Below are positions 2,019 through 15,039 of a stretch of 36,471 bases of DNA, one piece after another. A program made the translations under genes and the position numbers. A model generated the notes under the pieces. That model was not told where the DNA came from. It saw nothing but the letters and a program-made list of their open reading frames with translations, and did no database searches. How positions within the stretch are numbered: the first letter of the stretch is position 1; the number at the start of each line of letters is the position of its first letter. Where the stretch lies: assembly GCA_018304585.1 (NCBI GenBank), contig JAGVVY010000031.1:1-36471 (forward strand), given 5' to 3'. This stretch comes from Candidatus Aenigmatarchaeota archaeon (lineage in GTDB: Archaea > Aenigmatarchaeota > Aenigmatarchaeia > GW2011-AR5).

Positions 2019-2345
2019 GGTGACCTGCCAGCAACGGCCATTGTATCCGCGGGCTCCTGTAAAAGGGAATCCGGGGAGCGGTGGAGGAAACTCTGTCCAC
2101 CCGCGGCGAAAGCCGAAAGTGCATCATCCGTCGGAAGGCGGCTGCCGGAAACAGAAACGATACCCTGGCTCTGATCCGTGATGCGCCGTTCGGGGATGAA
2201 ACGGTCCGGCATGCATGGGTGCAAGCGAGAAGAGATGCGAAGCCGTGCTTTGCATTGCTCAATGCTCAGACAAATGTTGCATGGCCTCCTGATGAACCCT
2301 TCATAGGGGGAAAGGCCTACAAAAGACAGGTTATGGCAGGTCACC
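2019..2345 (+). ncRNA. rnpB: RNase P RNA
   Basis: This 327-base segment folds like the catalytic RNA of RNase P, which removes tRNA 5' leaders. GGTGACCTGCCA (2019-2030) pairs perfectly with TGGCAGGTCACC (2334-2345), giving a 12-bp P1. The conserved block GGAGGAAACTCTGTCC around 2083-2098 corresponds to CR-I. AAC-U-CUGUC (2089-2097) pairs with GACAGGUU (2325-2332) to form P4 with its conserved bulged uridine at 2092. An internal GGAAACAGAAACGA block (about 2139-2152) resembles archaeal specificity-domain motifs. Protein frames across this stretch on either strand look random. The 3' end overlaps the integrase gene antisense by 15 bases and is the apparent integration target. Confidence 0.85.
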
Positions 2346-3536
2346 CTCATCTTTAAGGAAGGTGATTCCACCTTCCTCCTTTATTATTTTTCCTAGCTCG
2401 TGCTCTAGGAAGTCGCGGACGTTGGGCCTTTCCATCAGCTTGTCCATTACGCTGTCCGTCAGCCTTCTTTTCTCCTCAATTTCCATTACAGTTTTCAGGT
2501 CAAGCGGCATCCAGCATTTTTGGCAAACTTTGAAAGTAGCAGGATTGAGCTTGCCGCAGCGTGGGCAGTCCTTTGGCTTTAGCGTGCCATTGTCTTTCGG
2601 CTCGACCTTTTTGATGCCATTGATTTCGAGCAGCTTGTCATCGATATCTTGGCCTGATAAATGAATGTAAACAGCAGCCATCTTGCTCGAGCCTGCCCAG
2701 CCTGCGAATTTCCGGAGCTGGGCTTCGTTGAAGCCCGACTTGGCGAGATCTGTCAAGCGAGAATGCCGGAAAAGATGAGGATGCACGTACTTCTTGATCT
2801 CTGCCCTAGTTGCTATGATAAGTATTCTGTGCTGTATGCCTACCTGTGACATAGGCTTTCCAAAGTTCTTGCGGCCAACAGAAACCCAGAGATGAGCGTC
2901 TGGATCGTCCCGGTGCGGATGGTTGTTAAGCCATTCTTTCAGGTCAGGCGACGAATTGATGAGCCTTACCCTTCTTTGGCCTGTCTTGCCATCTACCATT
3001 AATATTGCGCCGTGCTCGTCAAATGTGCAGTGCTTTATCCTCAGGCTAAGCATCTCGCCTAAGCGGCACGCTGAATCGTAAAGCACAAGGACAAATGCAC
3101 GATCTCTTACGCTATCGCATGCCTCAGCCATTTTCTTGATTTCCTCTTTTGTAAGCAGCTCCTCAGGAAGCTTGTATTTGTTATTCCTGTTCTCCTTTAT
3201 CCAGCTCACGATTTCAGGGTACTCACCATTGTTGAGAAACTTGAAAAATTTCTTAATGGAGAGCTTTGCTAATTCCATTGTGCGATCGCCGCTCCCGTTT
3301 CGCAGGCTTTCGAACAAGGTTACGATATCTTCTTTTGTTATCTCGCTGAAAGGCTTGCTGATTTTCCTTACAAGATAATAGATTGATTTCATATAGCACA
3401 AGCGCGTAGCAGGCCTCAAGCCGTTTATGTAGCACTGCGTATCAAAATCCATGATAGCCTTTTCATTCTCCTGCGGAATGCCTAATTTCACTATCCTTTG
3501 CTTCAGGCTCTCCAGGCTGCGCTCAACTGAATCCAT
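2331..3536 (-). CDS. Tyrosine recombinase (integrase) with C-terminal zinc ribbon
   Basis: A XerC/D-type site-specific recombinase of 401 residues from the chosen start. Counting from an in-frame ATG 57 bases upstream (at 3593), the catalytic set is Arg177, Lys203, His273-x-x-Arg276, Trp299 in place of the third His, and the nucleophile Tyr309. The N-terminal half is a SAM-like core-binding domain. A four-cysteine zinc ribbon (Cys343, 346, 357, 360) follows the catalytic domain, as in many archaeal integrases, and then a charged helical tail. The start at 3536 is preferred because AGGTGA lies just upstream and a TATA box sits 41 bases away inside the longer frame. Its 3' end overlaps rnpB antisense, next to attL, and it probably drives integration and excision of the element. 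Confidence 0.92.
   Translation of the reverse strand: MDSVERSLESLKQRIVKLGIPQENEKAIMDFDTQCYINGLRPATRLCYMKSIYYLVRKISKPFSEITKEDIVTLFESLRNGSGDRTMELAKLSIKKFFKFLNNGEYPEIVSWIKENRNNKYKLPEELLTKEEIKKMAEACDSVRDRAFVLVLYDSACRLGEMLSLRIKHCTFDEHGAILMVDGKTGQRRVRLINSSPDLKEWLNNHPHRDDPDAHLWVSVGRKNFGKPMSQVGIQHRILIIATRAEIKKYVHPHLFRHSRLTDLAKSGFNEAQLRKFAGWAGSSKMAAVYIHLSGQDIDDKLLEINGIKKVEPKDNGTLKPKDCPRCGKLNPATFKVCQKCWMPLDLKTVMEIEEKRRLTDSVMDKLMERPNVRDFLEHELGKIIKEEGGITFLKDEGDLP
2333..2345 (+). repeat. attL: left copy of the 13-bp attachment core
   Basis: ATGGCAGGTCACC lies within the 3' strand of the RNase P RNA P1 helix and also spans the last codons of the integrase. The same 13 bases recur at 11454-11466 in the same orientation. 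That they coincide with an RNA 3' end and an integrase gene end makes them a likely recombination core. Confidence 0.65.
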
Positions 3537-3540
3537 GTAG

Positions 3541-3669
3541 TCACCTGCCTTGGGCGTACGGGTGATGCTGAGTTTTATAAAGCTTGCCTTCATGCTCGGC
3601 TTTCGCCCTTTCTACCATTTTCATTAGCTCCTCACACCAGAGTGGCAAAGCTTTTTTCACGCCATTCAT
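3541..3669 (-). CDS. Candidate 42-residue protein upstream of the integrase
   Basis: This short frame ends with a TGA that forms part of the integrase ribosome-binding sequence (GGCAGGTGACTAC before ATG), so translation of the two could be coupled. The product has a likely amphipathic helix with a Trp-Cys-Glu-Glu stretch in the middle and a polar tail rich in His, Tyr and Gln. It resembles small leader or excisionase-sized frames next to integrases in position only. An in-frame GTG nine bases upstream is an alternative start. The TATA box assigned to the integrase lies inside it. Coding status is uncertain. Confidence 0.35.
   Translation of the reverse strand: MNGVKKALPLWCEELMKMVERAKAEHEGKLYKTQHHPYAQGR
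3573..3582 (-). promoter_or_regulatory. Probable TATA box of the integrase gene
   Basis: On the minus strand this reads CTTTATAAAA, centred about 41 bases upstream of the ATG at 3536. It predicts a leader of roughly 15 bases that just includes the AGGTGA ribosome-binding site. It favours the 3536 start over the ATG at 3593. Confidence 0.5.
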
Positions 3670-3826
3670 AGAAGCCACTCTCTCTGTATCTCTCTTGCCA
3701 AAGCACGAGAAGAACTGATGAAAGAAAAAGAATTTCTACAAAAAATCGCCACTTCGGTTATGTAGGTTAGTATGTTATATGTTATGTATGTATTATGTGG
3801 TTGAGAGAGTGAGAGATAGAGAGGCT

Positions 3827-4018
3827 TCATACATGACCAGCCTCTCTCAGCTCTTCAATCATCTGCTTTATGGTTTCTATTCTGTATCCTATCTGCAAGG
3901 AAAACAGTGCTGCAATCTTGTTTTCCTCCATGTCAGGATTGTCCTTGAACATCTTCAGCAGCCTTAGCTTGTCCTGCCGACGCTTCTCAACGAAGTAGTT
4001 GTTAGGCATTATTCTCAT
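3827..4018 (-). CDS. Small winged-helix-like DNA-binding protein
   Basis: A 63-residue protein whose start overlaps the end of the Sm-like gene by 17 bases; ATG codons at 4018 and 4009 are both possible. The sequence is basic at the N terminus and then consists of two or three helices (RLLKMFKDNPDMEENKIAAL, then ETIKQMIEELREAGHV). The pattern fits a helix-turn-helix in which IETIKQMIEELREAG would be the recognition helix leading to a wing. It is co-transcribed with the Sm-like gene on the mobile element and is probably an element regulator, but the assignment rests on helix pattern alone. Confidence 0.65.
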   Translation of the reverse strand: MRIMPNNYFVEKRRQDKLRLLKMFKDNPDMEENKIAALFSLQIGYRIETIKQMIEELREAGHV

Positions 4019-4202
4019 CCCCTGCTTCGTGGATCTTGATAATGCTGGCCCGCCTGATATAGAAATCCTTGTTGAGCGTTTGGAGAACCAGCACCTCGGG
4101 ATCGAAGTTTACAAGGGTGCCTCGCAGAACTCGTATCTTTCCGCCGTCGTCGAATAGCACTTTCACAAACTTTCCCTTTAACGGTGCGAACACGTCTGAC
4201 AT
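4002..4202 (-). CDS. Sm-like (LSm-fold) small protein
   Basis: The 66-residue product has an Sm-like pattern. A strand GKFVKVLFDDGGKIRVLRG is followed by TLVNFDPEVLVLQTL, whose Asp lies in the position of the Sm1 motif, and then by a strand ending IRRASIIKIHEA like the Sm2 motif. LSm proteins form RNA-binding rings; small mobile-element versions exist in archaea with mostly unknown targets. The start is supported by GGTGAT six bases upstream. Expression probably comes from a palindromic TATA box at 4248-4256 shared with the divergent gene. A generic SH3-like barrel is the main alternative. Confidence 0.6.
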   Translation of the reverse strand: MSDVFAPLKGKFVKVLFDDGGKIRVLRGTLVNFDPEVLVLQTLNKDFYIRRASIIKIHEAGDENNA

Positions 4203-4247
4203 CTGCGATCACCTTTTATCTTTCTTCGCACAAGTAAGATTCGGGAT

Positions 4248-4256
4248 GGATATATC
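4248..4256. promoter_or_regulatory. Palindromic TATA box between divergent element genes
   Basis: GATATATCC, within the palindrome GGATATATCC, lies between the Sm-like gene (start 4202, minus) and the HTH gene (start 4300, plus). It is nearly equidistant from the two starts, about 48 bases each, so one symmetrical element could serve both directions with short leaders. Confidence 0.45.
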
Positions 4257-4299
4257 CTTTTGAAGTCCGAGTCCCGCCCTGTTCGTGATAGTGATTGTT

Positions 4300-4701
4300 A
4301 TGGGAAAGAAGTCAATGCAGCAATCTATAGGGAACCATCTGCGCGTTCTTGCACTCCTGAGGGATGAAGGCCCTAAGTCTGCCGTAGAAATTTACAAGTC
4401 TATGAAAATACGCCGAAACACGCTCTACGATCTTCTGGATAGGATAGTTAACACGAAATGGGCGATCATAATAAAAGACGGGCCCAACGAAGGCAAGTAC
4501 GCATTCTACTGGTACAAGGACCTTGAATGGGAAATAGAGAAAGCGCTCAAGGCAAAATACCCTGATATGATAAAGAAAGGCTTCGTGCGCGGCAATACAG
4601 ACTTCTTTATAGCTCACGAGGTCGGCGTTGTTAATAATGAGAAGTTCAAGCATGCTTATGGTACTGTCGTTGAAAGGTTAGGCTTGCAGAAGATCAGTTA
4701 G
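4300..4701 (+). CDS. Winged-helix transcriptional regulator
   Basis: A 133-residue protein from the ATG at 4300; a GTG at 4285 would add five residues. The N-terminal half reads as a winged helix: HLRVLALLRDEGPKSAVEIY, a recognition helix near RRNTLYDLLDRIVNT, and a wing WAIIIKDGPNEGKYAFYWY. The C-terminal half, with an FVRGNTDFFIAHEVG stretch, is not recognised and may bind a ligand or partner. It is divergent from the Sm-like gene and convergent with the GHKL gene. A role as a regulator of the element is inferred. Confidence 0.7.
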   Translation: MGKKSMQQSIGNHLRVLALLRDEGPKSAVEIYKSMKIRRNTLYDLLDRIVNTKWAIIIKDGPNEGKYAFYWYKDLEWEIEKALKAKYPDMIKKGFVRGNTDFFIAHEVGVVNNEKFKHAYGTVVERLGLQKIS

Positions 4702-4753
4702 TTTCTATCAACCATGCATAGAATTATCGCTGCGAATTCCGGAAGTGACCAGA

Positions 4754-6160
4754 TTACCGTCTTTCAATACTCAATCCTTTGCTTGCTGCTAATCCTAAAA
4801 GCCTAGACAGCTCTTGTTCGAATTCCTTTGAGACGTCGCTCGCACCGCTTTTTGCATGGGCGATTTCATGCAGCAGTGTTCCGGCGTATAGCTCTAGATT
4901 CTTTAACTGGTCTCTCTTTATTACTATCCTGTTGTTTTGCTCTTCCCATACACCTGCAGCTTCTCTATAACCCATCGTTTCAAGTCTCATAGTTTCAGAA
5001 ATCAATATTTTCTTGACACTCCTCGGCGCACCACCAACAATTTCTAAAATTTTCTTTGTCCTACTGAACACTTCCCGTTCTTTTGAAGATAAATTTTTTT
5101 CATTTACGAATTTGAATTCAAAACTTTCATCCCATTCAGATTTATACTCTTCAAGATCACGTATAGGATTTCCTTTAAGATCTGTAAGTCCCCGAATTTT
5201 TGATTTTATATTGTCTGGAATAGTTACAATTTTGAAGCCATCATCTACTGCTCTATCAGCCATATCCTTTGCATAAACAAGTTCACTTGGAGTTAAGAAT
5301 ATTACCTTTTCATTAGCATTGAGGAGTTTGCACGCGTGAACAGCAACGTCTGTCCATTTTAATTCATCGCTAAGAAGCCCTGTTTCGTATTCTTTTAAGT
5401 TGTCCACGAGAAACATAGCGACATTTTTATCTCGGCATAATAAAAGTATAGCCTTTACCCTATCTGTATATGCCGTCCTGCCTACATGTGTTCTTTCCCT
5501 GTTAAGGGCTTTGCGCATGACCCTCGTTAAAGAAGTTATGTTATAAGAAAAAAGGAAATTCTCTTCCTCTGCAACTCGAAGGCCATTTATGTATATTTTG
5601 GCAGTGTTGCTGCTCTTTTTTAAGACTTCTCCAAATTCAGTTTTCTCGAGAAGCTCCTCTCCAGAGAACTTCAAAAAGAAGCTTTTAGCCTTATCTATGT
5701 CATCCTTCTTGCAGCCTCCAAGAATGAATTCAGTTCCAATAATCTTTTTTTCTGTCGGGTCATTTATGAGAGCATGCAATGTTGTGATATCTTCAAATCC
5801 GTGCTTAGATGATTTTCCTATTGTAATGTCACCATATTTTGATTTTATCAAGACACGCACTTTATGCCTGTCAAACGTTGCAAGTGCATCTTTTAACCCT
5901 ACTCCGAATTTCCCAATGACAAGATGCGATTTTTTTAATTTCTCTTCATTCTCATTCTGCGTTAAATGCTCATATTTTATTCCTCTTCCAAAATCACGTA
6001 TATGCCAGACTCCTTTGCCATCCTTGAAAATTTTAATGTCGGAAGTTTCAGTCAACAATTGCTCGTCTAAGGCATTAGAAATAATTTCCCTGATAGCATG
6101 ATATACTTCCCAGTCCTCAAGAACTTTCTCTATATTTAGATCAAATTTTTTTGTATCCAT
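4754..6160 (-). CDS. GHKL ATPase fused to HExxH metallopeptidase-like domain
   Basis: The 468-residue protein starts with a GHKL (Hsp90/MutL/MORC-type) ATP-binding domain. The N box is Glu25-x3-Asn29-x2-Asp32, the G1 box is Asp56-Phe-Gly58-Arg-Gly60, and the G2 box is Gly83-Lys-Phe-Gly86-Val-Gly88. A middle region of about 250 residues is unassigned. The C terminus has His431-Glu432-Ile-Ala-His435 followed by Ser-Gly-Ala-Ser-Asp and Glu-Phe-Glu (446-448), typical of a zinc metallopeptidase with a downstream acidic ligand. It is the last gene of an operon, 10 bases after the YhaN-like gene, and AT-rich like its two partners. ATP-driven clamp closure coupled to proteolysis is inferred; neither activity is shown. 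Confidence 0.85.
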   Translation of the reverse strand: MDTKKFDLNIEKVLEDWEVYHAIREIISNALDEQLLTETSDIKIFKDGKGVWHIRDFGRGIKYEHLTQNENEEKLKKSHLVIGKFGVGLKDALATFDRHKVRVLIKSKYGDITIGKSSKHGFEDITTLHALINDPTEKKIIGTEFILGGCKKDDIDKAKSFFLKFSGEELLEKTEFGEVLKKSSNTAKIYINGLRVAEEENFLFSYNITSLTRVMRKALNRERTHVGRTAYTDRVKAILLLCRDKNVAMFLVDNLKEYETGLLSDELKWTDVAVHACKLLNANEKVIFLTPSELVYAKDMADRAVDDGFKIVTIPDNIKSKIRGLTDLKGNPIRDLEEYKSEWDESFEFKFVNEKNLSSKEREVFSRTKKILEIVGGAPRSVKKILISETMRLETMGYREAAGVWEEQNNRIVIKRDQLKNLELYAGTLLHEIAHAKSGASDVSKEFEQELSRLLGLAASKGLSIERR

Positions 6161-6170
6161 ACTTCAAACC

Positions 6171-7904
6171 TTATACTTCAATAACATTTTCTGCAAAATT
6201 CTTGAACTCTTTGTGGTATGGTCTATGTGATATTAAGATTATTTGCTTATTTTTTGCAAGTTGCTTTATGATATCAATTGTTTTGATTAATCGTGTGTCG
6301 TCAAAATTGTGAAATGGATCGTCCAAGATAAGTGGAATGCCTCTGTTGCCACTGAGTAAGTCCGACATTACAGATCTTAATGCGAAGTATAGTTGGTCTC
6401 TAGCACCTTGGCTTAAATAAAAAATATCTACAAACTCTTTTATTTCAGGCGCTTTGATTTTAACATCTAGTGTATCTTCTGATATTTTAAGATCGGCATA
6501 TCGACCATTTGTTATCTCTTTTAAAATAGGTTTTGAATTAGATACAATAGATGGGGTGAATTTCTGATGAACTTTAGATTCCGCAATTTCAAGATATTTA
6601 ACGGCTATTCTATATTCTTCAATCCGTCTCTTTAGATCATGTGTTCTTTCTTCTATAGCATCTAATTTTTCCTTTATCTCCTCTGGGCTCTCGACGAGAG
6701 AAGTGGTAGTTTTGATAGTTGCATGTAATTCCACTTTCTTTGATTTTAGGGAATCTACCTCTTTTTCTAATTCATCCAATTCATCGAAATCATTTATTGT
6801 AAACTTAACAAGCTTGTACTCATCTAGTCGGCTTTCTAAGACAGCCTTTTTGTTTATCAAATCCTTTTTCTCTTTTTGATACTTTCTAAGTTTCTCATCA
6901 CTCCTCTGAATTGGTTTTGTTTTCTTTTCTTTTTTGCGTAACAGTACTATACCATAAATTATCATTGGTATACCGATTAATGCCCCGATACCTGTTAATG
7001 AAATAAGAACTCCAATTATAATTAGCCCGTATCCGATAGTTTTGTTTGAAGCCATTGGTTGTGATTCAACTTTTTCTTCTGATAGTGTTTGAATCAGTTC
7101 CTCAGCCTTTTCTATTTGCTTGTCTATGTGATCCATGTCACTAAGCAGCTTTTCCTTCTCGTCAAAAAGTTTCTTATTCTTTTTTAATTTCTCTAATTCT
7201 TTTGCTTTATCAGAAAGTCTTTTGTTTGTAGTTTCAAATTCTCCACTGTCCTTAACCACAGTTTCTTTTGTTTCCTCTGCTGATTCAAGACGCTCTTTTA
7301 ATTCATCACGTTCTGTACCAAAATCATCAATTTCCTTTGTGCAATCTTTTACAGCCTTCCGTATTTTTGCCAGAGCTTTAGTTGCAGATGCTTCTGACCT
7401 GCCAGCAAATACTTCCTCGATCATGTCTTTTATTTTGTTTCTTACAGAATTGTCCTCTAGAATAGCCATTTGTGATTGCCTAATAAAAGCTGTATTTTCA
7501 AAAACTTTTTTGTCGTCGAAACCAAAGTGCTCTTTTAGAAGCGGGTCTATATTCTTGTCAACAGTGGCAATCTCCTTGAACTTACCTTTTTCTAATGATT
7601 CTAACTTTCTCTTTGATGATTTGTAGTCACACGTTATTCTGAAAACATGACTCTTACTTCTACTTACTTTGTATGTTAGAGCGACTCTACATATTTTATC
7701 ATTTTTCCAACATATGAATGGCTGAATTTGATTTTTTGTATACTTGAATATTGAAGCCATTATAGCTTCTAACATGGTGCTTTTTCCGGTTTCATTCAAA
7801 CCTGTTATGAAGTTTATCTGCTTATCAAACTTTATCGTAGTATAGGAAGCAAATTTTCCAAAGCCTTCCATTTCAAGTTTCAACAATTCAACCATAACTA
7901 TCAC
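6171..7904 (-). CDS. Rad50/SMC-like ATPase with transmembrane hairpin (YhaN-like)
   Basis: The 577-residue ATPase has the split architecture of Rad50. Walker A is GLNETGKST (35-43), with a Q-loop Gln143 in FIRQSQM. A coiled coil spans about 190-450, then come the LSQG signature (497-500), Walker B LILDDP (525-530) and a switch His560. At the coiled-coil apex (289-322) is a strongly hydrophobic stretch long enough for two short membrane helices, followed by RKKEKK. No CxxC zinc hook is seen. This matches bacterial YhaN-type proteins, thought to tether the complex to the membrane. The GTG at 7904 overlaps the nuclease stop by 4 bases (ATG at 7895 is the alternative), so the pair should be coupled. 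Confidence 0.9.
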   Translation of the reverse strand: MIVMVELLKLEMEGFGKFASYTTIKFDKQINFITGLNETGKSTMLEAIMASIFKYTKNQIQPFICWKNDKICRVALTYKVSRSKSHVFRITCDYKSSKRKLESLEKGKFKEIATVDKNIDPLLKEHFGFDDKKVFENTAFIRQSQMAILEDNSVRNKIKDMIEEVFAGRSEASATKALAKIRKAVKDCTKEIDDFGTERDELKERLESAEETKETVVKDSGEFETTNKRLSDKAKELEKLKKNKKLFDEKEKLLSDMDHIDKQIEKAEELIQTLSEEKVESQPMASNKTIGYGLIIIGVLISLTGIGALIGIPMIIYGIVLLRKKEKKTKPIQRSDEKLRKYQKEKKDLINKKAVLESRLDEYKLVKFTINDFDELDELEKEVDSLKSKKVELHATIKTTTSLVESPEEIKEKLDAIEERTHDLKRRIEEYRIAVKYLEIAESKVHQKFTPSIVSNSKPILKEITNGRYADLKISEDTLDVKIKAPEIKEFVDIFYLSQGARDQLYFALRSVMSDLLSGNRGIPLILDDPFHNFDDTRLIKTIDIIKQLAKNKQIILISHRPYHKEFKNFAENVIEV

Positions 7905-9001
7905 ATTTTCTTATCTAAATAGCCCACTCCAGTTCTCAATGCGTTTTCTAGTATCTTTTTTCTATCAGCATCCTTCTCTTTTATAATTTCCTGCCTAACC
8001 AGTCGGATAAAATGTCCTCTGATTGTTTCGTCTTGGGCTAAGTTTTCAGGCAGATGAATGCTATCAACAACTTTCAGAAAGAAATATTTTTGATCAAACT
8101 CTTTCATCAACAAATCTATGTCTAGATTTAGCTCTAGTGACGGGCTACCCTTCATGATCAGCCTGAGTATTTTATTTTCGCCCTTATTCTTTTCTAGTAT
8201 TTTTCTAATTTCGTTATCAGTTTCAAAGTTTGTGCAGTCTACTTCTATGGTTTCAAATTCTCTCAAGTTAGTTTTTATCGGTTTTATATCAATTTTTTTA
8301 TTGAAATATGAAACTAATAGGCAGAATTTATCTCCTTTATTCTTAAAAGTCAGACCTTCTGGCGTACCTGAGTAGAAACATTTCACCTTTGTTTTTATGT
8401 CTAAAAGGTCGTGGAAATGCCCCAAAGCTATGTAATCTAAGTTACTATTCTCGATATGCTCTTTGAGTATCCTTCTGTAGCCTGCCTCGGGTTCTTCGTC
8501 CCAATTTATGTTAGTAGTAGAGCCGTGTATCAATCCCACTTTGAAATTGTCTTCTTCATCTGCTTCAAAGCTTTTTAGCGGTTCTTTTGTATCGGAAGTA
8601 TATGCTAGACCATAAACTGTCAATCCGTCTATCTTTTTTGGTTCCAAATTGGCACAGTCGAAGACAAACACATTAGAAGGAAATTTGTATTCGATCCAAA
8701 CACTATCTTTCTTATATGGATCATGATTTCCAGTAGATACAAAGACTTGTATACCCTCTTTTTTCAGCCGTTCAAATTCGTTTATTACAAATTTAACAAA
8801 AGATTTTTGTGGGTCCATTGAATCAAAAAGATCACCCGCTATCAATAATGCTGAAACTTTTTCCTTTATACAAAGATCTATGATATTTGAAAATACATCT
8901 TGGCAGTCAATTCTGTGTAATTTAGATTTATCGCCTAGGCCTTTGAATGTCATGCCCAAATGCAAATCTGACGTATGAATTAATTTTATTGGCTTCTTCA
9001 T
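7901..9001 (-). CDS. Mre11/SbcD-like nuclease (YhaO-like)
   Basis: A 366-residue calcineurin-type phosphoesterase with every metal-binding motif of Mre11: Asp12-Leu-His14, Gly-Asp57, Gly-Asn92-His93-Asp, His159 in IHGST, and Gly-His195-Phe-His197. It should cut DNA ends with manganese, gated by its Rad50-like partner encoded next. Translation starts after a strong ribosome-binding site, AAGGAGGGTT, five bases before the ATG. It is the first gene of the three-gene operon. The usual archaeal HerA/NurA neighbours are absent, and the genes sit on a mobile element, so this looks like a specialised pair rather than the housekeeping Mre11-Rad50. Confidence 0.92.
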   Translation of the reverse strand: MKKPIKLIHTSDLHLGMTFKGLGDKSKLHRIDCQDVFSNIIDLCIKEKVSALLIAGDLFDSMDPQKSFVKFVINEFERLKKEGIQVFVSTGNHDPYKKDSVWIEYKFPSNVFVFDCANLEPKKIDGLTVYGLAYTSDTKEPLKSFEADEEDNFKVGLIHGSTTNINWDEEPEAGYRRILKEHIENSNLDYIALGHFHDLLDIKTKVKCFYSGTPEGLTFKNKGDKFCLLVSYFNKKIDIKPIKTNLREFETIEVDCTNFETDNEIRKILEKNKGENKILRLIMKGSPSLELNLDIDLLMKEFDQKYFFLKVVDSIHLPENLAQDETIRGHFIRLVRQEIIKEKDADRKKILENALRTGVGYLDKKM

Positions 9002-9068
9002 TTTAACCCTCCTTCATAATTCATATTTTTAATGACTGTTTTCTTAAACCCTCAAGTTTGCACTTCCT

Positions 9069-10757
9069 CTAAAGCAGTGAGAGAAATATTTCTATTGGAA
9101 TCATTGTGTAGTTTTCTTGTATTTCGAATTTTTCTGAATTTGTAACTACAATCAATCTAGGTATTTTGAATTGTTCCTTTAGGATTTCTGCCTTCTCTTT
9201 GATTTCTCTCATGCTCGGATTATTGCCATACTTGACTTCAACAGGCAAAACAATAAACTTATTTTTGAAATTGATGTACCAGGCCATGCCATCTACGATC
9301 TCCTTTTCTTTACCATCTTGGTCCAATAACATGTATCCAACATTCTTAGACAGCATTGACCTTTTCAGTACAGGTGCATGTTGCAAATGTGAAACGACTA
9401 TCGACTCTGCTAGATGCTCCATTATTATGTCGTTTGCGAGCAGACCTTTGGCGGCTCTAAATATTGATGACGTGCCTCTTGAACAGAGATACGATGCTAT
9501 GAATACAGATGGATCACTAATCACAAGTTTGAGCTTGTCCCGGCTAGGACTCACAATTTGCTGCTCTATGTTCACTTGGTCTGGCGAAGAGATATTTGGA
9601 AGGAAATTAAATAGACCAGAAGCTTCCAAATATTCTATGCACCGTTCTATCTGGTCTTTCTTTGGAGTTAGATTCTTTGGTACAATAGAGTCATAATTTC
9701 CTGAAATTCTCATAGAAGGAAGCGGCATGTTGGATAAAATGCCTCTGATTATTGTTTCATCCAGATCAAACTTTTTCGAGTCTGTCAAAATTAGGTTGTA
9801 AATGTCGTCCCTATACCGCGCATCTGATACGCTTGTTTCTCCTTGTCTCTGAGTTGTTACAGCCTCGAATATAGATTTCGGGTATCCGCCCGTGTAAATG
9901 TAGGTATTGATGAAAAGAGTATGCAAATCCGTATAGTGATTTTTGATAAAACTCTCCAGCAAATTATCATAATTATATGAGGCGTCGTTTGCAGAAGTTT
10001 GATATCCTGCTAGGTATTCAATCATACCCATTCTTTTGCCAAATTTGCCCAGATTTCTTGCGAAAAAACTCTTGAAACTGGAGCCGAGTACAGATTCAGA
10101 AACCTCTATGAACCGCCTAGGAAAGAAGAACAGATCACCGCCCATGTTTTCTCCCAGCGGTCCGAATCTTCCTGAAAGCTCGGTTTTGGCGCTGCTCAGA
10201 TCCAGCGAGTAGCTTCCGGTATTGATTATGCCTATTCCAGGTCCTATTGAACCAGAGTCAACAAGATTTTTTATGGCGCGTGCCCATCCTTTGTAAAATG
10301 TTACCTCATCCAGAATTAAAATTAGAGGTTTACCAGGCTTCCTGAATCTGGTTATAATCGCATCCACAAGTTCTCTTAAGATTCGCTTTCTGTCCAACTC
10401 TGCCAGCAGCTCATCAGCATCAAGAGATAGGTATACAAAACACTCAGCAGGATAGCCAGAATCTATCATGGTCTTGATCAGATACTTCAATGTCGATGTT
10501 TTTCCAATTCTACGCGGGCCTCTGATTATGAGAATTCCATGTTTTTCTGGCTCGCTAAACAGTCTTCTGAAAAAGTCCTTGTCCAGATAAAAGAAGATTT
10601 TCGGCGGTTCAAACAGACCCTGGTTCTCTGCAATTATCACTTCTCTAAGAGAGCCGTCGCTCAAGAACCAGTCCTTGTTTTTAGGATCGTGCCAAGGATT
10701 GTTTTTGGCTATCATCTCCATGAGATTGTCTATTTCACTCCCGTTTGTCATTCTCAT
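9069..10757 (-). CDS. Walker-type ATPase with DUF4143-like C-terminal domain
   Basis: The 562-residue protein has a Walker A GPRRIGKTS around residues 80-88 and a Walker B LILILDEV ending at Asp150-Glu151, followed by FYKGW, the layout of the archaeal AAA-type ATPase family. The C-terminal region has DGMAWYINF then LPVEVKYG, matching the D...ExK core of the PD-(D/E)xK-like DUF4143 domain; whether it cuts DNA is unknown. The start overlaps the ribbon-helix-helix gene by 23 bases, so the two form one transcription unit. Such genes are common in archaea near mobile elements and often occur with small regulators. A role in element maintenance or toxicity is inference. Confidence 0.88.
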   Translation of the reverse strand: MRMTNGSEIDNLMEMIAKNNPWHDPKNKDWFLSDGSLREVIIAENQGLFEPPKIFFYLDKDFFRRLFSEPEKHGILIIRGPRRIGKTSTLKYLIKTMIDSGYPAECFVYLSLDADELLAELDRKRILRELVDAIITRFRKPGKPLILILDEVTFYKGWARAIKNLVDSGSIGPGIGIINTGSYSLDLSSAKTELSGRFGPLGENMGGDLFFFPRRFIEVSESVLGSSFKSFFARNLGKFGKRMGMIEYLAGYQTSANDASYNYDNLLESFIKNHYTDLHTLFINTYIYTGGYPKSIFEAVTTQRQGETSVSDARYRDDIYNLILTDSKKFDLDETIIRGILSNMPLPSMRISGNYDSIVPKNLTPKKDQIERCIEYLEASGLFNFLPNISSPDQVNIEQQIVSPSRDKLKLVISDPSVFIASYLCSRGTSSIFRAAKGLLANDIIMEHLAESIVVSHLQHAPVLKRSMLSKNVGYMLLDQDGKEKEIVDGMAWYINFKNKFIVLPVEVKYGNNPSMREIKEKAEILKEQFKIPRLIVVTNSEKFEIQENYTMIPIEIFLSLL

Positions 10758-11019
10758 TCACCCGCTTGATCAAGAAATCAACCTGCTTGGTTATTATATT
10801 GAGTCTATTTAGCATAGCATTTTGCTTGTTTTCGATTTCAAGGACTTTACCAGCTAAGCCCGACATATCTGGTTGCTTTGCACCGTAAGACTGGACAAAA
10901 GACTTTACTGCTTTGTTAAGTAGAGTGCTTCTGCTGATGCCTTCACTCTTGGCTAATTCTGAAAGTCTTTTCAATGCATCATCATCGAGCCTTACCGATA
11001 TGGGTCCTTTGTTTTTCAT
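10735..11019 (-). CDS. Ribbon-helix-helix (CopG/Arc-type) regulator
   Basis: The 94-residue protein opens with a ribbon-helix-helix domain. The DNA-contacting strand is ISVRLDDDAL, helix 1 is KRLSELAKSEG, and ISRSTLLNKAVKSFVQSY completes the fold. A second region of about 45 residues (KVLEIENKQNAMLNRLNII and following) has a heptad pattern and probably oligomerises as a coiled coil. The ATG lies about 26 bases downstream of a TATA-like CTTTAAATAAT, so the transcript is probably leaderless. Upstream are at least five TGTAGT-type half-sites, three spaced exactly 10 bp apart, the expected target of such a protein. It probably represses itself and the overlapping ATPase. Confidence 0.88.
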   Translation of the reverse strand: MKNKGPISVRLDDDALKRLSELAKSEGISRSTLLNKAVKSFVQSYGAKQPDMSGLAGKVLEIENKQNAMLNRLNIITKQVDFLIKRVNENDKRE

Positions 11020-11039
11020 AGAGTTACATTACACTGTAA

Positions 11040-11113
11040 ATTATTTAAAGCATGTAGTTATTTGTAGTCTTTTGTAGTCATTATTTGACTACATTGTAAT
11101 ACATTTAACTACA
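11040..11113. promoter_or_regulatory. Phased operator array for the ribbon-helix-helix protein
   Basis: TGTAGTTA (11053-11060), TGTAGTCT (11063-11070) and TGTAGTCA (11073-11080) are direct half-sites exactly 10 bp apart. They are followed by inverted half-sites TGACTACA (11086-11093) and TAACTACA (11106-11113), 20 bp apart. The third and fourth form a perfect 8-bp inverted repeat with a 5-bp spacer. Sites on one face of the helix suggest cooperative binding. The regulator's own TATA box lies at 11040-11050, beside the array. Confidence 0.7.
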
Positions 11114-11135
11114 AGACTTGTGTAGGTTAGAAAGT

Positions 11136-11344
11136 GTGTCAAATCTCTGACACCTTTGCGACACCCAGACCGCCTAAGGGTGTCGTTTTTCCGACACCTG
11201 TCAAGCCAAGAGTGTCCATGTGGACACATAAATGTCCAAAAGGATGTCCTTTTAGGGACCCCTTACCACGAAATCGCCTAAACCCCGTTAGTTTTCTAAC
11301 ACCCTTCTAACAGGGTGTATCACGAAATCGCCAAAAACCCGTTA
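11136..11344. repeat. Iteron-like repeat cluster at the right end of the element
   Basis: Seven GTGTC/GACAC half-sites lie between 11136 and 11227, six of them in inverted pairs. One is a 7-bp stem GGTGTCG/CGACACC (11179-11185 and 11192-11198); another is GTGTCCA/TGGACAC (11212-11218 and 11221-11227). Next comes a 24-bp direct repeat beginning CACGAAATCGCC at 11267-11290 and 11321-11344, with 22 of 24 bases identical. Between its copies are two small hairpins (GTTAG/CTAAC at 11287-11300 and ACACCCT/AGGGTGT at 11299-11318). Together they resemble a replication or partition site of a small replicon. From 11345 to 11453 nothing further is recognised except an inverted partner of attR near 11433. 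Confidence 0.6.
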
Positions 11345-11453
11345 CAAGTGTACCGTTTCGGACCAAGCGTTAAGAGAGCCCGTTTAACCCGTTAAATTCA
11401 TAACACCTTATCAGAACCAGAATCACCTGCCACCTTCCTTCTTCGTATCTTTG

Positions 11454-11466
11454 ATGGCAGGTCACC
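11454..11466 (+). repeat. attR: right copy of the 13-bp attachment core
   Basis: ATGGCAGGTCACC is identical to the end of rnpB at 2333-2345. An inverted copy of part of it (ACCTGCCA near 11433) lies 13 bases upstream and could be an integrase arm or core site. The sequence to the right should be the host DNA that originally followed rnpB. Confidence 0.65.
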
Positions 11467-11477
11467 TATACTCATAT

Positions 11478-11506
11478 GATGGGCTAATGGAAATCGTTAG
11501 CCCATC
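11478..11506 (+). terminator. Hairpin, probably the original rnpB terminator
   Basis: GATGGGCTAA (11478-11487) pairs perfectly with TTAGCCCATC (11497-11506) around a 9-base loop, followed by TTCATGTTTATAA. It starts 12 bases after attR. If the element is removed in silico, this hairpin lies directly behind the RNase P RNA, consistent with a displaced terminator. Confidence 0.45.
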
Positions 11507-11513
11507 TTCATGT

Positions 11514-11704
11514 TTATAACCCGCATATCAAAAACCACCCGCTTGAGCGGGTGGATGAGGCAAGAACGGGTTCGTGCTGCCTCTAATCACAAGAGAATGT
11601 TCTAAAGCAGGGAAAAGAAGAACGGATGGAGCAAACCTGTCGGCCAAAATTCATAGAATTCTCCAGCCCGTAACGCCCGCCACTTCAGTGGCGGGATTAT
11701 TTAC
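11514..11704 (+). mobile_element. IS200/IS605-like remnant or structured RNA element, copy A
   Basis: The stretch begins TTTATAACCCGCATATC and ends with the palindrome CCCGCCACTTCAGTGGCGGG followed by ATTATTTAC, the form of IS200/IS605 right-end hairpins. Its first 60 bases fold as an outer stem AACCCG (11518-11523) with CGGGTT (11567-11572) around a perfect inner hairpin CCACCCGC-TTGA-GCGGGTGG (11535-11554). The inner and outer stems are separated by CATATCAAAAA on one side and ATGAGGCAAGAA on the other. The same plan recurs at 35641-35908. No transposase gene is present, so it is a non-autonomous copy, a solo end, or a transposon-derived RNA. Confidence 0.5.
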
Positions 11705-11707
11705 CCT

Positions 11708-11962
11708 CAGAAAGCAAAGCTTTCTGGGATCTCAAAAAGGCAGGCTTTTTGTAGATCGTCAACTACGCATCAAAGTAGCGGTTACAGCCTACAAAATCCG
11801 CTCTGTGCAGTTGGCGGACCCCCGAACTACACGCCTGGTCAGCTTTGGAGAAGCCGAGCTTCTCCAAACGCTCGATCCCGCATGCGGGATCGCAGATAGC
11901 CGAAGCTTTGCCTTGTTGAGAGCTTCGACGCCGAACCTGAACGCGTTCCAGACAGTTTCAGG
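11708..11962. other. Hairpin-dense intergenic region
   Basis: Six hairpins follow one another: CAGAAAGC/GCTTTCTG (11708-11726); a 7-bp stem at 11733-11751; a perfect 11-bp stem TTTGGAGAAGC/GCTTCTCCAAA with loop CGA (11844-11868); a perfect 20-bp palindrome with half-site CGATCCCGCA (11873-11892); CGAAGCT/AGCTTCG (11901-11927); and CCTGAA/TTCAGG (11936-11962). TTTTGTAG (11747-11754) also pairs with CTACAAAA (11789-11796), enclosing a smaller CTAC/GTAG stem. No convincing protein is encoded. It may be a structured RNA or the wreck of a transposon. Confidence 0.55.
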
Positions 11963-11990
11963 CTCTTTGAATTAAGAACTATGCCTATCT

Positions 11991-12383
11991 TCATGACCTC
12001 GCCTTCTCTATGATGTCTATTATGTCTGTCTCGGCTTCCCGTGCTTCTTGTTCATCTACTTCAGGGAAAAACTGCGATATCATTGTAGGTTTCATGCCGA
12101 TTATCTTTACTTTGCCGTTGTCCTCAACAACATTGATCTTGCAGGGCATGCAGAGCGAAATGAGCCTGTTTTTGTTAAGAAACTGGTTGGCATACTTGGC
12201 CGAGCACATTTCAATGATTTTCAACGGCTTCTGGCTGAAGCCCTTGGCAGCCAGCCGCTCCTTGACATCATAAACCTGGAACAACGACCAGCCTTTCTGT
12301 TCTATAGATTTGAGCACCGAAACAATTGCTTCGTCAAAGCTCTTTTTCGTTTCCACAATATATGCAAAATCCCCTATATCCAT
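11991..12383 (-). CDS. DUF302 family protein
   Basis: The 130-residue protein matches the DUF302 pattern. An N-terminal segment FDEAIVSVLKSIEQKGWSLF is followed by a strand-helix centre with IIEMCSAKYANQFL, then LISLCMPCKINVVEDNGKV, where the conserved proline-cysteine strand leads into the charged turn. The fold is a small alpha/beta domain; the function is unknown, though the family often occurs near metal, sulfur and redox genes. It is the last gene of an operon with an ArsR-type regulator and a small membrane protein, suggesting a stress- or metal-responsive unit. The two cysteines in LCMPC could bind metal or react with thiols. Confidence 0.85.
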   Translation of the reverse strand: MDIGDFAYIVETKKSFDEAIVSVLKSIEQKGWSLFQVYDVKERLAAKGFSQKPLKIIEMCSAKYANQFLNKNRLISLCMPCKINVVEDNGKVKIIGMKPTMISQFFPEVDEQEAREAETDIIDIIEKARS

Positions 12384-12392
12384 CTCATCGCC

Positions 12393-12584
12393 TTATTTTT
12401 GAGCAAGGGTCACTGCCAGCCAGACCACAAGGACCAGTACCAGTATCATAAATACAGGCCCGAAAAAGAACATCCCGCCCATATGGCCGAATCCCCAGCC
12501 AAAGCTCAGGAGAAGCAATGCAACCAGGATAGCAATAATTGCGAGTATGTTATTGGCATATTTTTGCTTTTTCATCATAATCAC
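12393..12584 (-). CDS. Small two-helix membrane protein
   Basis: A 63-residue protein with two hydrophobic segments (ILAIIAILVALLLLSFGWGF and FFFGPVFMILVLVLVVWLAV) joined by a short glycine- and methionine-rich turn. GTG at 12584 overlaps the stop of the ArsR gene by 4 bases; the in-frame ATG at 12578 is an alternative. It lies between the regulator and the DUF302 gene and is presumably co-transcribed. No family is recognised. The His/Met-Gly turn might contact metal, but this is only a suggestion. Confidence 0.75.
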   Translation of the reverse strand: MIMMKKQKYANNILAIIAILVALLLLSFGWGFGHMGGMFFFGPVFMILVLVLVVWLAVTLAQK

Positions 12585-12895
12585 CCTAGGGTTGTAATTA
12601 TCCTATCCTTTTTCATCTTCTCGATAAGCGCGTCCCTTATTATGTCGAACGCCTTCACTATTTTCGGACTGGCAAGCCTGTAATACATGTTCTTGCCGCC
12701 CCTTCTCGAAACAACAATGCCTCTGGCCTTCATTATACCTAAGTGCTGGGATATGTTCGCCTGGCTAAGCTTCGACTTTTCAATAAGTTCTGTTACTGAT
12801 AACTCATCGTACCTCAGCAGGTGCAGGATTTCCAGCCTGATAGGATTGGAGAATACCTTGCACATCTCGGCATGAACCATGTAGAGATCTTTCAT
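12581..12895 (-). CDS. ArsR-family winged-helix repressor
   Basis: The 104-residue protein is a classic ArsR/SmtB fold: HAEMCKVFSNPIRLEILHLL, then the recognition helix LSQANISQHLGIMKARGIV, then the wing SRRGGKNMYYRL and a C-terminal dimerisation helix. Only one cysteine is present, so the usual paired-cysteine metal site is absent and the inducer is unclear. The start lies 27 bases downstream of a TATA-like GAATTTAAATATT, fitting a leaderless transcript. It is the first gene of a three-gene operon, and the inverted repeat around its TATA box is the probable operator. Confidence 0.92.
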   Translation of the reverse strand: MKDLYMVHAEMCKVFSNPIRLEILHLLRYDELSVTELIEKSKLSQANISQHLGIMKARGIVVSRRGGKNMYYRLASPKIVKAFDIIRDALIEKMKKDRIITTLG

Positions 12896-12908
12896 ATTAG
12901 ACTATTAG

Positions 12909-12934
12909 AATATGTTAATATTTAAATTCATATT
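12909..12934 (-). promoter_or_regulatory. Promoter and probable operator of the ArsR operon
   Basis: AATATG (12909-12914) and CATATT (12929-12934) form an inverted repeat flanking the TATA-like TTTAAATT about 27 bases upstream of the ArsR start. Binding there would block TBP, the usual mode of archaeal repression. The short arms make the operator call tentative. Confidence 0.45.
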
Positions 12935-12969
12935 TATTGAATGTTACATAATTAATGTTCTTTACTATT

Positions 12970-13060
12970 ATAGCAAATGACAGAGGCATTTCGACAAAAT
13001 TCTGTCTTTGCTATATGTAGATGACATTAGTTTTTAGGCATTTCAATGTCATCTACTATA
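12970..13060. repeat. Palindromic element, copy 1
   Basis: Two hairpins lie side by side. The first pairs ATAGCAAA-t-GACAGA with TCTGTC-TTTGCTAT; the second is a perfect 12-bp stem GTAGATGACATT/AATGTCATCTAC. A related copy at 16063-16142 has the first hairpin in the same orientation but the loop and stem of the second inverted. The right end supplies the last codons and stop of the HEPN gene. It is MITE-like: small, palindromic and without a coding region. Confidence 0.6.
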
Positions 13061-13522
13061 GTCGACGTTTGCGATGTCATCCCTGACGAGTTTTTCGAGA
13101 ATGGGATATATTCTACCAAGAAATTCCATGATTTTCTTTGCATATTCCGCATCAAGGCTTTTGCCGTAATAGACGACACCGTTCCTAAAATACCTGAGTT
13201 CATTCGCGAACTTTACGTCGGATTCATGAAAAGCGAGTTTCCGAAGATAAGAAACTTCCGCTTCATGCGCGTTCAATCCTGCGGCCTTGAAGCCGTCTGC
13301 AAACATCTTCGCACGGGTCAGCTCCATTATTGTGTCGTATGCGTTTTCGACGAAATAATTGGCGTTATGATCCGATATGCCGAGTTTGATCGATATTTCC
13401 TGAAGGAAATGCCTTCTTCTGTGAGCCTCTTGGGCAAGATCCGCCGCCCTTGATATATCAGGCCTCCGCCTTTTTACAACGCCTTCTTGCAGGAATTCTT
13501 CAAATCTTCTGAGAGCGTTCAT
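13049..13522 (-). CDS. HEPN-domain protein, partner of HTH-nucleotidyltransferase
   Basis: The 157-residue helical protein fits the HEPN family that pairs with minimal nucleotidyltransferases. The motif region is ELRYFRNGVVYYGKSLD: Arg113-Asn114 are kept, but the His expected four to six positions later is Tyr (118/119), so the RNase centre looks incomplete. Many archaeal HEPN partners have this Tyr-Tyr-Gly form, and some are targets for AMPylation rather than nucleases. Its ATG overlaps the stop of the nucleotidyltransferase gene by 4 bases, the usual order of this two-gene module. The last codons lie in a mobile palindromic element, so the C terminus may have been altered by insertion. Confidence 0.8.
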   Translation of the reverse strand: MNALRRFEEFLQEGVVKRRRPDISRAADLAQEAHRRRHFLQEISIKLGISDHNANYFVENAYDTIMELTRAKMFADGFKAAGLNAHEAEVSYLRKLAFHESDVKFANELRYFRNGVVYYGKSLDAEYAKKIMEFLGRIYPILEKLVRDDIANVDYSR

Positions 13523-14064
13523 AGTCGTATGCTCCCGTTTAGCACGATGCCGTTGAGTATGTTTTCTTTCAAACTTTTGTTGATCCCCCTGAAATCCGGG
13601 TAGAAGTTGAGAGAAATGCGCCTTTCCAGCAGCTTCCGGAATTTTTCAACGGCCACTTCCTTTTTTGCCGTGCCTACAATTGCTATGTCAATGTCGGAAT
13701 CGGCGGCATCTTCACCGAATGAGTAGCTTCCAAAAAGAATGATCGCACAGCCCGGAAAGGTTTCCGACAGGCATTCCGGAAGGCCTGATTCGTAAACAGC
13801 CCTTAAGTTCTCAATTCTTTTCAGAAAAAACACCTTCGGGTTTTCCTTATTGAGGCTTATTGAAAGCCGCCCGGATTCCGGGTCTTTTGTGACTGCTATC
13901 AACCGTTCTTTTTGCAGCAACGGCAGAGAATTGGAAACTGCGGTCGGGGATGCTTTAAGCCTGCCGGCAAGTGACCTTTCCGTGAATCTTGCGCCGGATT
14001 TCAGAAAAAGAAATCTAAGCATTTCCTGCTGCAATGCTGTAAACCTTACTTTATATATGTCCAT
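13519..14064 (-). CDS. HTH-fused minimal nucleotidyltransferase
   Basis: The 181-residue protein has an N-terminal winged helix (about 8-75, with SLAGRLKASPTAVSNSLPLL as the recognition region) and a C-terminal nucleotidyltransferase domain. The catalytic signature is Gly112-Ser113 followed by Asp124-x-Asp126. With the HEPN gene downstream it forms an MNT-HEPN pair, a toxin-antitoxin type in which the transferase can AMPylate and silence its HEPN partner. The helix-turn-helix could let it repress its own promoter, where a 15-bp direct repeat is seen. A TATA box 28 bases upstream suggests a leaderless transcript. Confidence 0.88.
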   Translation of the reverse strand: MDIYKVRFTALQQEMLRFLFLKSGARFTERSLAGRLKASPTAVSNSLPLLQKERLIAVTKDPESGRLSISLNKENPKVFFLKRIENLRAVYESGLPECLSETFPGCAIILFGSYSFGEDAADSDIDIAIVGTAKKEVAVEKFRKLLERRISLNFYPDFRGINKSLKENILNGIVLNGSIRL

Positions 14065-14100
14065 TTTACTTTATATATGTAAAATCAAGTTTATATATCT
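14046..14100. promoter_or_regulatory. Direct-repeat operator and promoter of the nucleotidyltransferase gene
   Basis: TTACTTTATATATGT occurs at 14046-14060 and again at 14066-14080, exactly 20 bp apart, and a related AGTTTATATATCT follows at 14088-14100. The last contains the TATA box about 28 bases upstream of the minus-strand start at 14064. Two-turn phasing of the repeats suggests cooperative binding on one DNA face, most simply by the HTH domain of the gene itself. Confidence 0.5.
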
Positions 14101-14142
14101 TGGCAAACGCCATTTTTGTACTTTATTTTCCAATTTTATTGC

Positions 14143-15039
14143 ATGGATTTTGACGCGATTTTCATAATCATCGGGCTCGGGCTTTTCGAGATGATAACAA
14201 GCATTGACAACGCCGTCATCAATGCGGAAGTCCTGTCGACCGTTTCGCAGAAGATGCGCCGCTTGTTCCTGACGTGGGGAATATTCTTTGCAGTGTTCGT
14301 CATGCGCGGGCTTCTGCCCCTCATCATCGTCATGCTCAGCCATCCGGGCATCGGGCTCGCTGAAGCGATCACGTTCTCAGCGGAAGAAAGCGCGATAGAG
14401 TCGTCGTCCAGCGTGCTGCTTATAGCAGGCGGCGTTTTTCTGGTATTCGTGTTCCTTAATTGGCTTTTCATGGAGCCGAAGGCCTACGGCCTCGGCATTG
14501 AGCGAAGGCTTCAGGATTTCAACGTCTGGTTCTATGCGGTGGTGTCGGTATTCCTCGCGGCGCTTGTATGGTTCGCCGCCGACAAGGACGGCATGATGGC
14601 GTTCGGTGCCGTTCTGGGCTCTACCATATTCTTCATAGTCCACGGCTTCAGGCTGAATGCCGAGAAGATGGAGCAGGAAATGATGCATAAGAAGGGCATG
14701 AGCGACTGGTCAAAGATATTCTATCTTGAAGCGATAGACGCAAGCTTCTCCATAGACGGCGTCATAGGCGCGTTCGCGTTTACTATGTCCGTCCCGCTCA
14801 TAATACTGGGCAACGGACTTGGCGCCATAGCGGTCCGCCAGCTAACCGTAGCGAACATAGACCGCATAAAGAAGTACAAATACCTGAAGCACGGCGCGAT
14901 GTATTCTATCCTCATCCTCGGCGCGGTCATGATAGCCGAAAGCTTCGGGTGGCATGCGCCGTCGTGGCTGTCGCCGCTCGCGGCTATTGCGGTAATGGGC
15001 TACTTCTTCCGGCGCTCGGTCAAAGAAATGGGGGCTTAA
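14143..15039 (+). CDS. TerC-like/DUF475 integral membrane protein
   Basis: The 298-residue protein has about eight membrane segments. It carries the two acidic membrane motifs of the TerC superfamily, FEMITSIDNAVINAEVLS near the start and FYLEAIDASFSIDGVIGAF about two thirds along. Family members are linked to tellurite resistance and to metal export in bacteria, and the Asp residues in these motifs are the likely cation ligands. The ATG at 14143 is preferred over a TTG at 14116, because the shorter form begins right at the first family segment. The stop overlaps the convergent SRPBCC gene by 4 bases. Confidence 0.88.
   Translation: MDFDAIFIIIGLGLFEMITSIDNAVINAEVLSTVSQKMRRLFLTWGIFFAVFVMRGLLPLIIVMLSHPGIGLAEAITFSAEESAIESSSSVLLIAGGVFLVFVFLNWLFMEPKAYGLGIERRLQDFNVWFYAVVSVFLAALVWFAADKDGMMAFGAVLGSTIFFIVHGFRLNAEKMEQEMMHKKGMSDWSKIFYLEAIDASFSIDGVIGAFAFTMSVPLIILGNGLGAIAVRQLTVANIDRIKKYKYLKHGAMYSILILGAVMIAESFGWHAPSWLSPLAAIAVMGYFFRRSVKEMGA

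Follow-up and report, generated by a model that had tools for sequence, protein, structure and literature searches.

The window analyzed in this work comprises positions 1-36,471 of contig JAGVVY010000031.1 (assembly GCA_018304585.1) of a Candidatus Aenigmatarchaeota archaeon of GW2011-AR5, and coordinates refer to this window unless a genome is named. It opens with the 3' end of an archaeal 23S rRNA gene, and contains rnpB, the gene for RNase P RNA, at whose extreme 3' end lies an AT-rich segment of 9.1 kb (2346-11466) carrying a gene for a tyrosine integrase at its left end. The original prediction, made from the letters of the window, had read this segment as an integrative element which uses rnpB as its attachment (att) site, and in substance that reading is upheld, by many genomes rather than by one repeat. 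The relatives used for comparison were metagenome-assembled genomes of Candidatus Aenigmatarchaeota from groundwater and similar sources, of which 156 were taken into the phylum-wide comparisons; the window's own genome, a 0.83-Mb draft, is designated G000.

The Rfam model of archaeal RNase P RNA, RF00373, spans positions 2020-2344 from end to end (model positions 1-288; 49.7 bits, E 4.3e-13), in line with the predicted identity of the gene, and 2019-2345 is the sole credible match in the draft genome, the next-best having an E of 1.6. The P1 helix is a perfect 12-bp helix in which 2019-2030 pair with 2334-2345. The predicted 13-bp direct repeat at the P1-closing end of the gene, ATGGCAGGTCACC, is exact at both positions 9.1 kb apart and lies in the same orientation; elsewhere in the window it occurs only inverted and with one mismatch, at 2019-2031, where it forms the P1 5' strand. 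The accompanying reservation, that 13 bp are short enough to recur by chance in 9 kb, does not stand, since chance would yield only about 5e-5 exact matches on the same strand in 9.65 kb and the 3' end of rnpB recurs in several genomes. When 3,801 rnpB 13-mers from ten genomes were compared by exact matching with up to 12 kb of downstream and upstream DNA, those at the 3' terminus of the gene recurred downstream in G000, G006 (twice), G009, and G014, internal 13-mers gave only scattered matches in single genomes, and no rnpB 13-mer recurred upstream. The repeat is 21 bp long in G009. A scan of the whole genomes of 31 members of the order, 20 of them belonging to the family, found the 12-mer core WTGGCAGGTCAC paired on a single contig in G000, G004, G006 (three copies), G009, and G014, while the reversed pattern, used as a control, gave one match.

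Both empty and occupied versions of this site are present among the relatives. In G002, of the same genus, rnpB has the same upstream gene and is uninterrupted: the locus aligns to 1483-2345 of the window at 88%, diverges exactly after the core, and continues into T-rich DNA without a second core, as the original prediction had anticipated for an unoccupied relative. A single core after rnpB is also found in G010, G016, and G018. Seven genomes of the family have att copies or element ends at this position, as does G030 from a sister family, and three show them in tandem. The distance between cores is 2.24 kb in G005, 7.5 kb in G009, 1.9 kb in G004 (where the contig starts inside an element), and 2.5 kb in G030; G006 has a tandem pair of units (1.1 and 1.0 kb), G014 one of 1.6 kb with a decayed second unit, and the contig of G007 starts with the right end of an element. 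Relatives with the same genes in the same place and no repeat were not seen, the repeat instead tracking occupancy across genera. Homology between the chromosomal right flanks of G006 and G009 (78% over 539 bp, with a shared gene that is OsmC-like by inspection) starts exactly at the last att copy. A TspO-like membrane protein is encoded in one of the two short G006 units (L064:8376-10480), and in the other a small HTH/RelE-like pair accompanies a remnant of an integrase.

The insertion in G030 is the most clear-cut example. Its P1 5' strand is GGTGACCTGTCA; the present rnpB 3' strand, GGGTAGGTCACC, has three mismatches to it, partly G-U, and 2.5 kb downstream the insert ends in the copy TGACAGGTCACC, the perfect complement of GGTGACCTGTCA, followed by a T-rich stretch. 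As it is the far copy and not the present 3' strand that perfectly complements the P1 5' strand, the original rnpB 3' end has been displaced. The simplest reading of these sequences is that the element swapped the P1 3' strand for its own version and pushed the original 2.5 kb downstream. The left core of G030 carries a remnant of the C-terminus of the same integrase as in the window.

The integrase gene of the window had been predicted to abut the left copy; it does more than this, in that it crosses the core and ends in rnpB. The protein is a full-length tyrosine recombinase with intact R-K-HxxR-W-Y catalytic motifs (ACRLGEM, DGKTGQRR, HLFRHS, and GWAGSSKMAAVYIH, at amino acids 175, 201, 273, and 298). 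Its final codons match the core in reverse complement, GGT GAC CTG CCA TAA reading GDLP-stop, and the stop codon lies inside rnpB as the antisense of the conserved TTATGG/CTATGG of that gene (CCA TAA / CCA TAG); at the empty sites examined the same antisense reading likewise ends at a stop. Across the core of the joined circle the frame would stay open and encode 18 extra residues, SKIRRRKVAGDSGSDKVL, with a circle-form tail of ...GDLPSKIRRRKVAGDSGSDKVL in the window and of GDLPSKIRRRKVADGGL for the right end of G005. As the reading frame crosses the core and would be open in the circle form, the attachment site of the element (attP) is placed inside the integrase gene. Of the other genomes searched in the phylum, only G030 and G006 strongly match the 57-aa C-terminal tail of the integrase, and in each of them the match lies at an att copy linked to rnpB and in the same register. 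Full-length integrases of other genomes with about 40% identity are without this rnpB-specific tail, and the plasmid and phage collections hold only integrases of about 24-36% identity. Att sites were also sought for the full-length integrases of about 40% identity, near whose 3' ends there were no repeats of at least 14 bp save one chance-looking match.

These features very probably represent a 9.1-kb element whose own tyrosine integrase has inserted it at the 3' terminus of rnpB. The core of the chromosomal site (attB) would be the P1 3' strand and, with the same 13 bp in attP, recombination would rebuild an intact P1 while the 3' strand that P1 had before is moved to the opposite end of the element. 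With attP within the 3' end of the integrase gene, the integrated form would stop in rnpB and the circle form read on into the right end. The integrase of the window would be the catalyst, and the element may still be excising. The site appears to act as a shared hot spot, used time and again in this family and its sister family by small elements which may or may not be related to one another; most of them are decayed, and some lie in tandem. A number of observations weigh against this interpretation. The rnpB score is below the RF00373 gathering score of 84 bits; the gene was called nonetheless because the match is full-length, its E is 4e-13, and P1 and the conserved regions are aligned, and because about half of the genes detected in the phylum are also below that score (108 of the 156 genomes have a match at E<=1e-5, only 57 of them above the gathering score). 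An intact integrase of this type is found at rnpB only in the window, the genes of G006 and G030 being remnants, and no integrase was seen at the rnpB elements of G004, G005, G007, and G009. The DNA to the right of rnpB in G002 differs from the right flank of the window, so that the right junction of the window has no counterpart in that genome. No free form of the element was present in viral_contigs, searched by protein and by three DNA patterns and holding no circular contig of it, or in the plasmid and phage collections. Finally, every genome compared is a metagenome assembly.

Were the 13-bp match a coincidence, the cargo would be an ordinary AT-rich chromosomal island which happens to adjoin rnpB. 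The repeat is indeed short and a single matching pair would be weak by itself, but the minute chance expectation, the recurrence of the 3'-terminal 13-mer downstream of rnpB in three further genomes against scattered single matches for internal windows, and the uninterrupted gene in the same genus leave this explanation with next to no credibility, and we count it as refuted. It is slightly less far-fetched, and still very improbable, that the repeats arose without an integrase through transposition or recombination near rnpB, either mediated by insertion sequences (IS) or by a spread of P1 through gene conversion. A 190-bp dispersed repeat just to the right of the element and the several inserts without an integrase would fit such an origin, yet the cores are at fixed positions, in one orientation, and always complete P1, with conserved element ends to their left, and in three genomes a tyrosine integrase or its remnant is found at the core in the same reading register. 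The inserts without an integrase have the appearance of elements which are decayed or mobilised in trans.

The extent of the element is a separate matter. G002 re-aligns to the window only at position 14982, the stretch 11467-14981 being also absent there, so that 2346 to about 14981 could be one element within which 11454-11466 would be an internal or older att copy. We regard this as unlikely, although less so than the two preceding alternatives: other att-bounded units begin with sequence that matches window positions 11467-11518, the chromosomal flank past the last att copy in G009 and G014 has a homologue of the region at 12.4 kb, the guanine-plus-cytosine (GC) content has returned to 0.42-0.51, and a 3' fragment of TerC at position 8234 of G002 aligns to the window, which suggests a deletion in G002. 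In that genome (L065:7090-8010) a PhnB/glyoxalase-like gene, so identified by inspection, and the TerC fragment replace the DUF302, ArsR, HEPN/MNT, and TerC genes of the window, and since the gene content differs there the neighbourhood varies beyond the att-bounded elements.

Two types of conserved right end lie to the left of the cores outside rnpB. The type A right end (CACCTTCCTTCTTCGTATCTTTG-core) is shared by the window, G005, G009, and G014, and a type B right end (CCCGTAATGCxCCCGTAAGGT-core) by G004, G006, and G007; G014 has a form related to type B as well. At the left end the 21-bp core of the palindrome is found, among the 156 genomes, only at the rnpB junctions of G000, G030, and G006, with no match to the reversed pattern, and the palindrome with its T-rich run may supply rnpB with a new terminator. 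T-rich downstream DNA is expected of archaeal terminators, and the flanks at empty sites or past the last core are T-rich, with 8-14 T in their first 20 nt. The right flank of the window after 11466 is not, having 7 T in 20 nt and no run of them. The 65 bp of 11454-11518, core included, share 89% identity with positions 323-387 of G004, which lie inside an att-bounded unit; the start of this sequence is also found in G014. For both of these reasons 11467-11518 probably represents the left end of a second element, decayed and in tandem with the first. The hairpin predicted to the right of the second copy does exist, at about 11478-11510, but its proposed role as the original rnpB terminator is unlikely given that att-bounded units of G004 and, in part, G014 start with the same sequence and that empty or last-copy flanks are T-rich.

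Should the altered C-terminus matter to the protein, integration might act as a switch on the integrase, the free form having a basic C-terminal tail which insertion removes by means of the CCA-TAR supplied by rnpB. Free and integrated forms would then make integrases of unequal activity, for example with the free form proficient for integration and the integrated form locked. We advance this with little confidence, and the question it raises is that of integrase control through a stop codon supplied by the host. The right-end sequence may instead be conserved as DNA-binding (arm) sites rather than as a protein tail, and the direct TTACGGG repeats in the other type of right end favour DNA sites.

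The cargo consists of five genes on the minus strand, encoding a ribbon-helix-helix regulator, an AAA_14 ATPase, an Mre11/SbcD-like nuclease, a Rad50/SMC-like ATPase, and a GHKL-type protein (Table 1). As had been predicted, the operon is AT-rich, with a GC content of 0.33-0.37 at 5-10 kb compared to about 0.5 elsewhere. The predicted regulators were likewise found, as a TrmB-like helix-turn-helix (HTH) protein, a possible Sm-like protein, and the ribbon-helix-helix protein; these are all that was found to back their description as being of small-replicon type, and that label is weak. The GHKL/Rad50/Mre11 block (4754-9001) is rare, being present in 2 of the 156 genomes: the second is G147, of a distant family, where it has 66-71% identity (70% for the GHKL-type protein) and lies at L166:6185-10384, away from the rnpB of that genome. 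The block is a candidate mobile module for defence or DNA processing, and a defence role is plausible. Within the Rad50-like gene there is also a 14-bp match, at chance level, to the rnpB 5' end (the P1 5' strand and the next bases) at 7394-7409.

Table 1. Features of the rnpB-borne element and its junctions in the window.
Feature	Position	Strand	Evidence
rnpB (RNase P RNA), restored through the left att copy	2019..2345	+	RF00373 full-length; perfect 12-bp P1
Tyrosine integrase of 420 aa ending in GDLP, encoded across the att core; stop TAA from rnpB	2331..3593	-	PF00589 E 8e-24
Left att core ATGGCAGGTCACC, P1 3' strand	2333..2345	+	Exact repeat
Palindrome AAGGAAGGTGATTCCACCTTCCT then T-rich run; candidate rnpB replacement terminator and/or integrase arm site	2355..2392	+	21-bp core at rnpB junctions of G000, G030, G006 only
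Small open reading frame (ORF) without Pfam match	3827..4018	-	ORF only
Small DUF2642-like protein, possibly Sm-like	4002..4202	-	PF10842 E 1e-4, just under cut-off
TrmB-like HTH regulator	4285..4701	+	PF01978 E 4e-4, under cut-off
GHKL/HATPase-type cargo protein, HEIAH (HExxH-like) motif near C-terminus	4754..6160	-	PF02518 E 2e-4, under cut-off
Rad50/SMC-like ATPase, cargo	6171..7904	-	PF13476; PADLOC LmuB (PDLC03859) 7.9e-18; Rad50 NCBIfam 1.7e-26, under cut-off
Mre11/SbcD-like nuclease, cargo	7901..9001	-	PF00149 1.3e-15; TIGR00619 above cut-off
AAA_14 ATPase	9069..10757	-	PF13173 4e-21
Ribbon-helix-helix regulator	10735..11019	-	PF01402 2e-7
Pair of 27-nt repeats near right end	11264..11354	+	Similar sequence in G006 rnpB-borne element
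Conserved type A right end, ending in att core	11429..11466	+	95% over 39 bp in G005; also G009, G014
Right att core ATGGCAGGTCACC	11454..11466	+	Exact repeat
Probable left end of second, decayed tandem element, hairpin included	11467..11518	+	11454-11518 vs G004 323-387

The Rad50/SMC-like ATPase resembles Lamassu systems in its match to the PADLOC model LmuB (PDLC03859, E 7.9e-18; the PADLOC models were used without a curated cut-off). Unlike in Lamassu its partners are the Mre11/SbcD-like nuclease and the GHKL-type protein, and none of the neighbours matched LmuA or LmuC at E<=0.01, so that by its defining partners the block is not Lamassu. The integrase has its best general profile similarity to archaeal XerA and XerC/D (NF040815); the score of 107 bits compares to a cut-off of 220, and it differs from XerA in having a C-terminal zinc-ribbon-like region and the core-crossing tail. 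An attP inside the integrase gene is also a property of the archaeal "suicidal" integrases of SSV1, pTN3, and pT26-2, which carry PF16795 (PMC8371274). The window integrase matches only PF00589 and PF13495 and not PF16795, and whereas integration divides the suicidal integrases into Int(N) and Int(C) pseudogenes, in the present case the last residues alone change and the catalytic domain of the 420-aa protein is left intact. In the integration-dependent immunity of mycobacteriophages attP lies inside a gene and integration truncates the protein, which can act as a switch (PMC9635641); there it is a repressor which is truncated, with loss of an ssrA-like degradation tag, while here it would be the integrase and the switch is hypothetical.

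Among structured RNA genes, it is mainly those for tRNA and tmRNA that are known as targets of such elements. The element described here is like the tRNA and tmRNA islands of Islander/TIGER, with their tyrosine integrases, in that attB is the 3' end of a structured RNA gene, which is made whole by a 3' fragment carried on the element; both kinds also have their integrase gene at one end and occur in tandem arrays. The difference lies in the target gene, rnpB, which is new for elements of this otherwise familiar kind. We know of no clear precedent for rnpB as an att site. The literature searched held no report of one, although most subscription papers were outside its coverage and this absence is not proof, and a review of archaeal recombinases leaves RNase P unmentioned (PMC8371274). 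Classification of TIGER/Islander sites assigns 33.8% to tRNA/tmRNA genes, 43.4% to protein-coding genes, and 22.8% to intergenic sites (PMC12424338); as the scheme has these three classes only, rnpB sites would count as "intergenic", and rnpB targeting would explain part of that class. The gene for a universal ribozyme as a repeated target in several genera would constitute a new class of target, for which a concrete annotation rule is to search the DNA downstream of rnpB for repeats of its P1 3' strand. The mobile elements of DPANN archaea are little studied, and the locus offers a test case of how insertion keeps the P1 helix and the terminator of an essential ribozyme working in their small genomes.

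A further integrase was found next to rnpB in G063 (family f15), where a gene for a full-length tyrosine integrase (L212:8080-9282, minus strand) lies about 60 bp downstream in the opposite orientation; no core repeat was present within the 8 kb to the contig end, and this could be an independent rnpB-targeting element. The dispersed 190-bp repeat to the right of the window's element (11513-11704) has hairpin ends and is present in four copies in the genome (contigs C5, C15, C26, and C32) which are 89-95% identical; it resembles a non-autonomous transposable element, possibly of the IS200/IS605 type. The stretch absent from G002 also contains, at 13049-14064, a gene pair for a HEPN-like protein and an MNT nucleotidyltransferase which is likely to be a toxin-antitoxin system.

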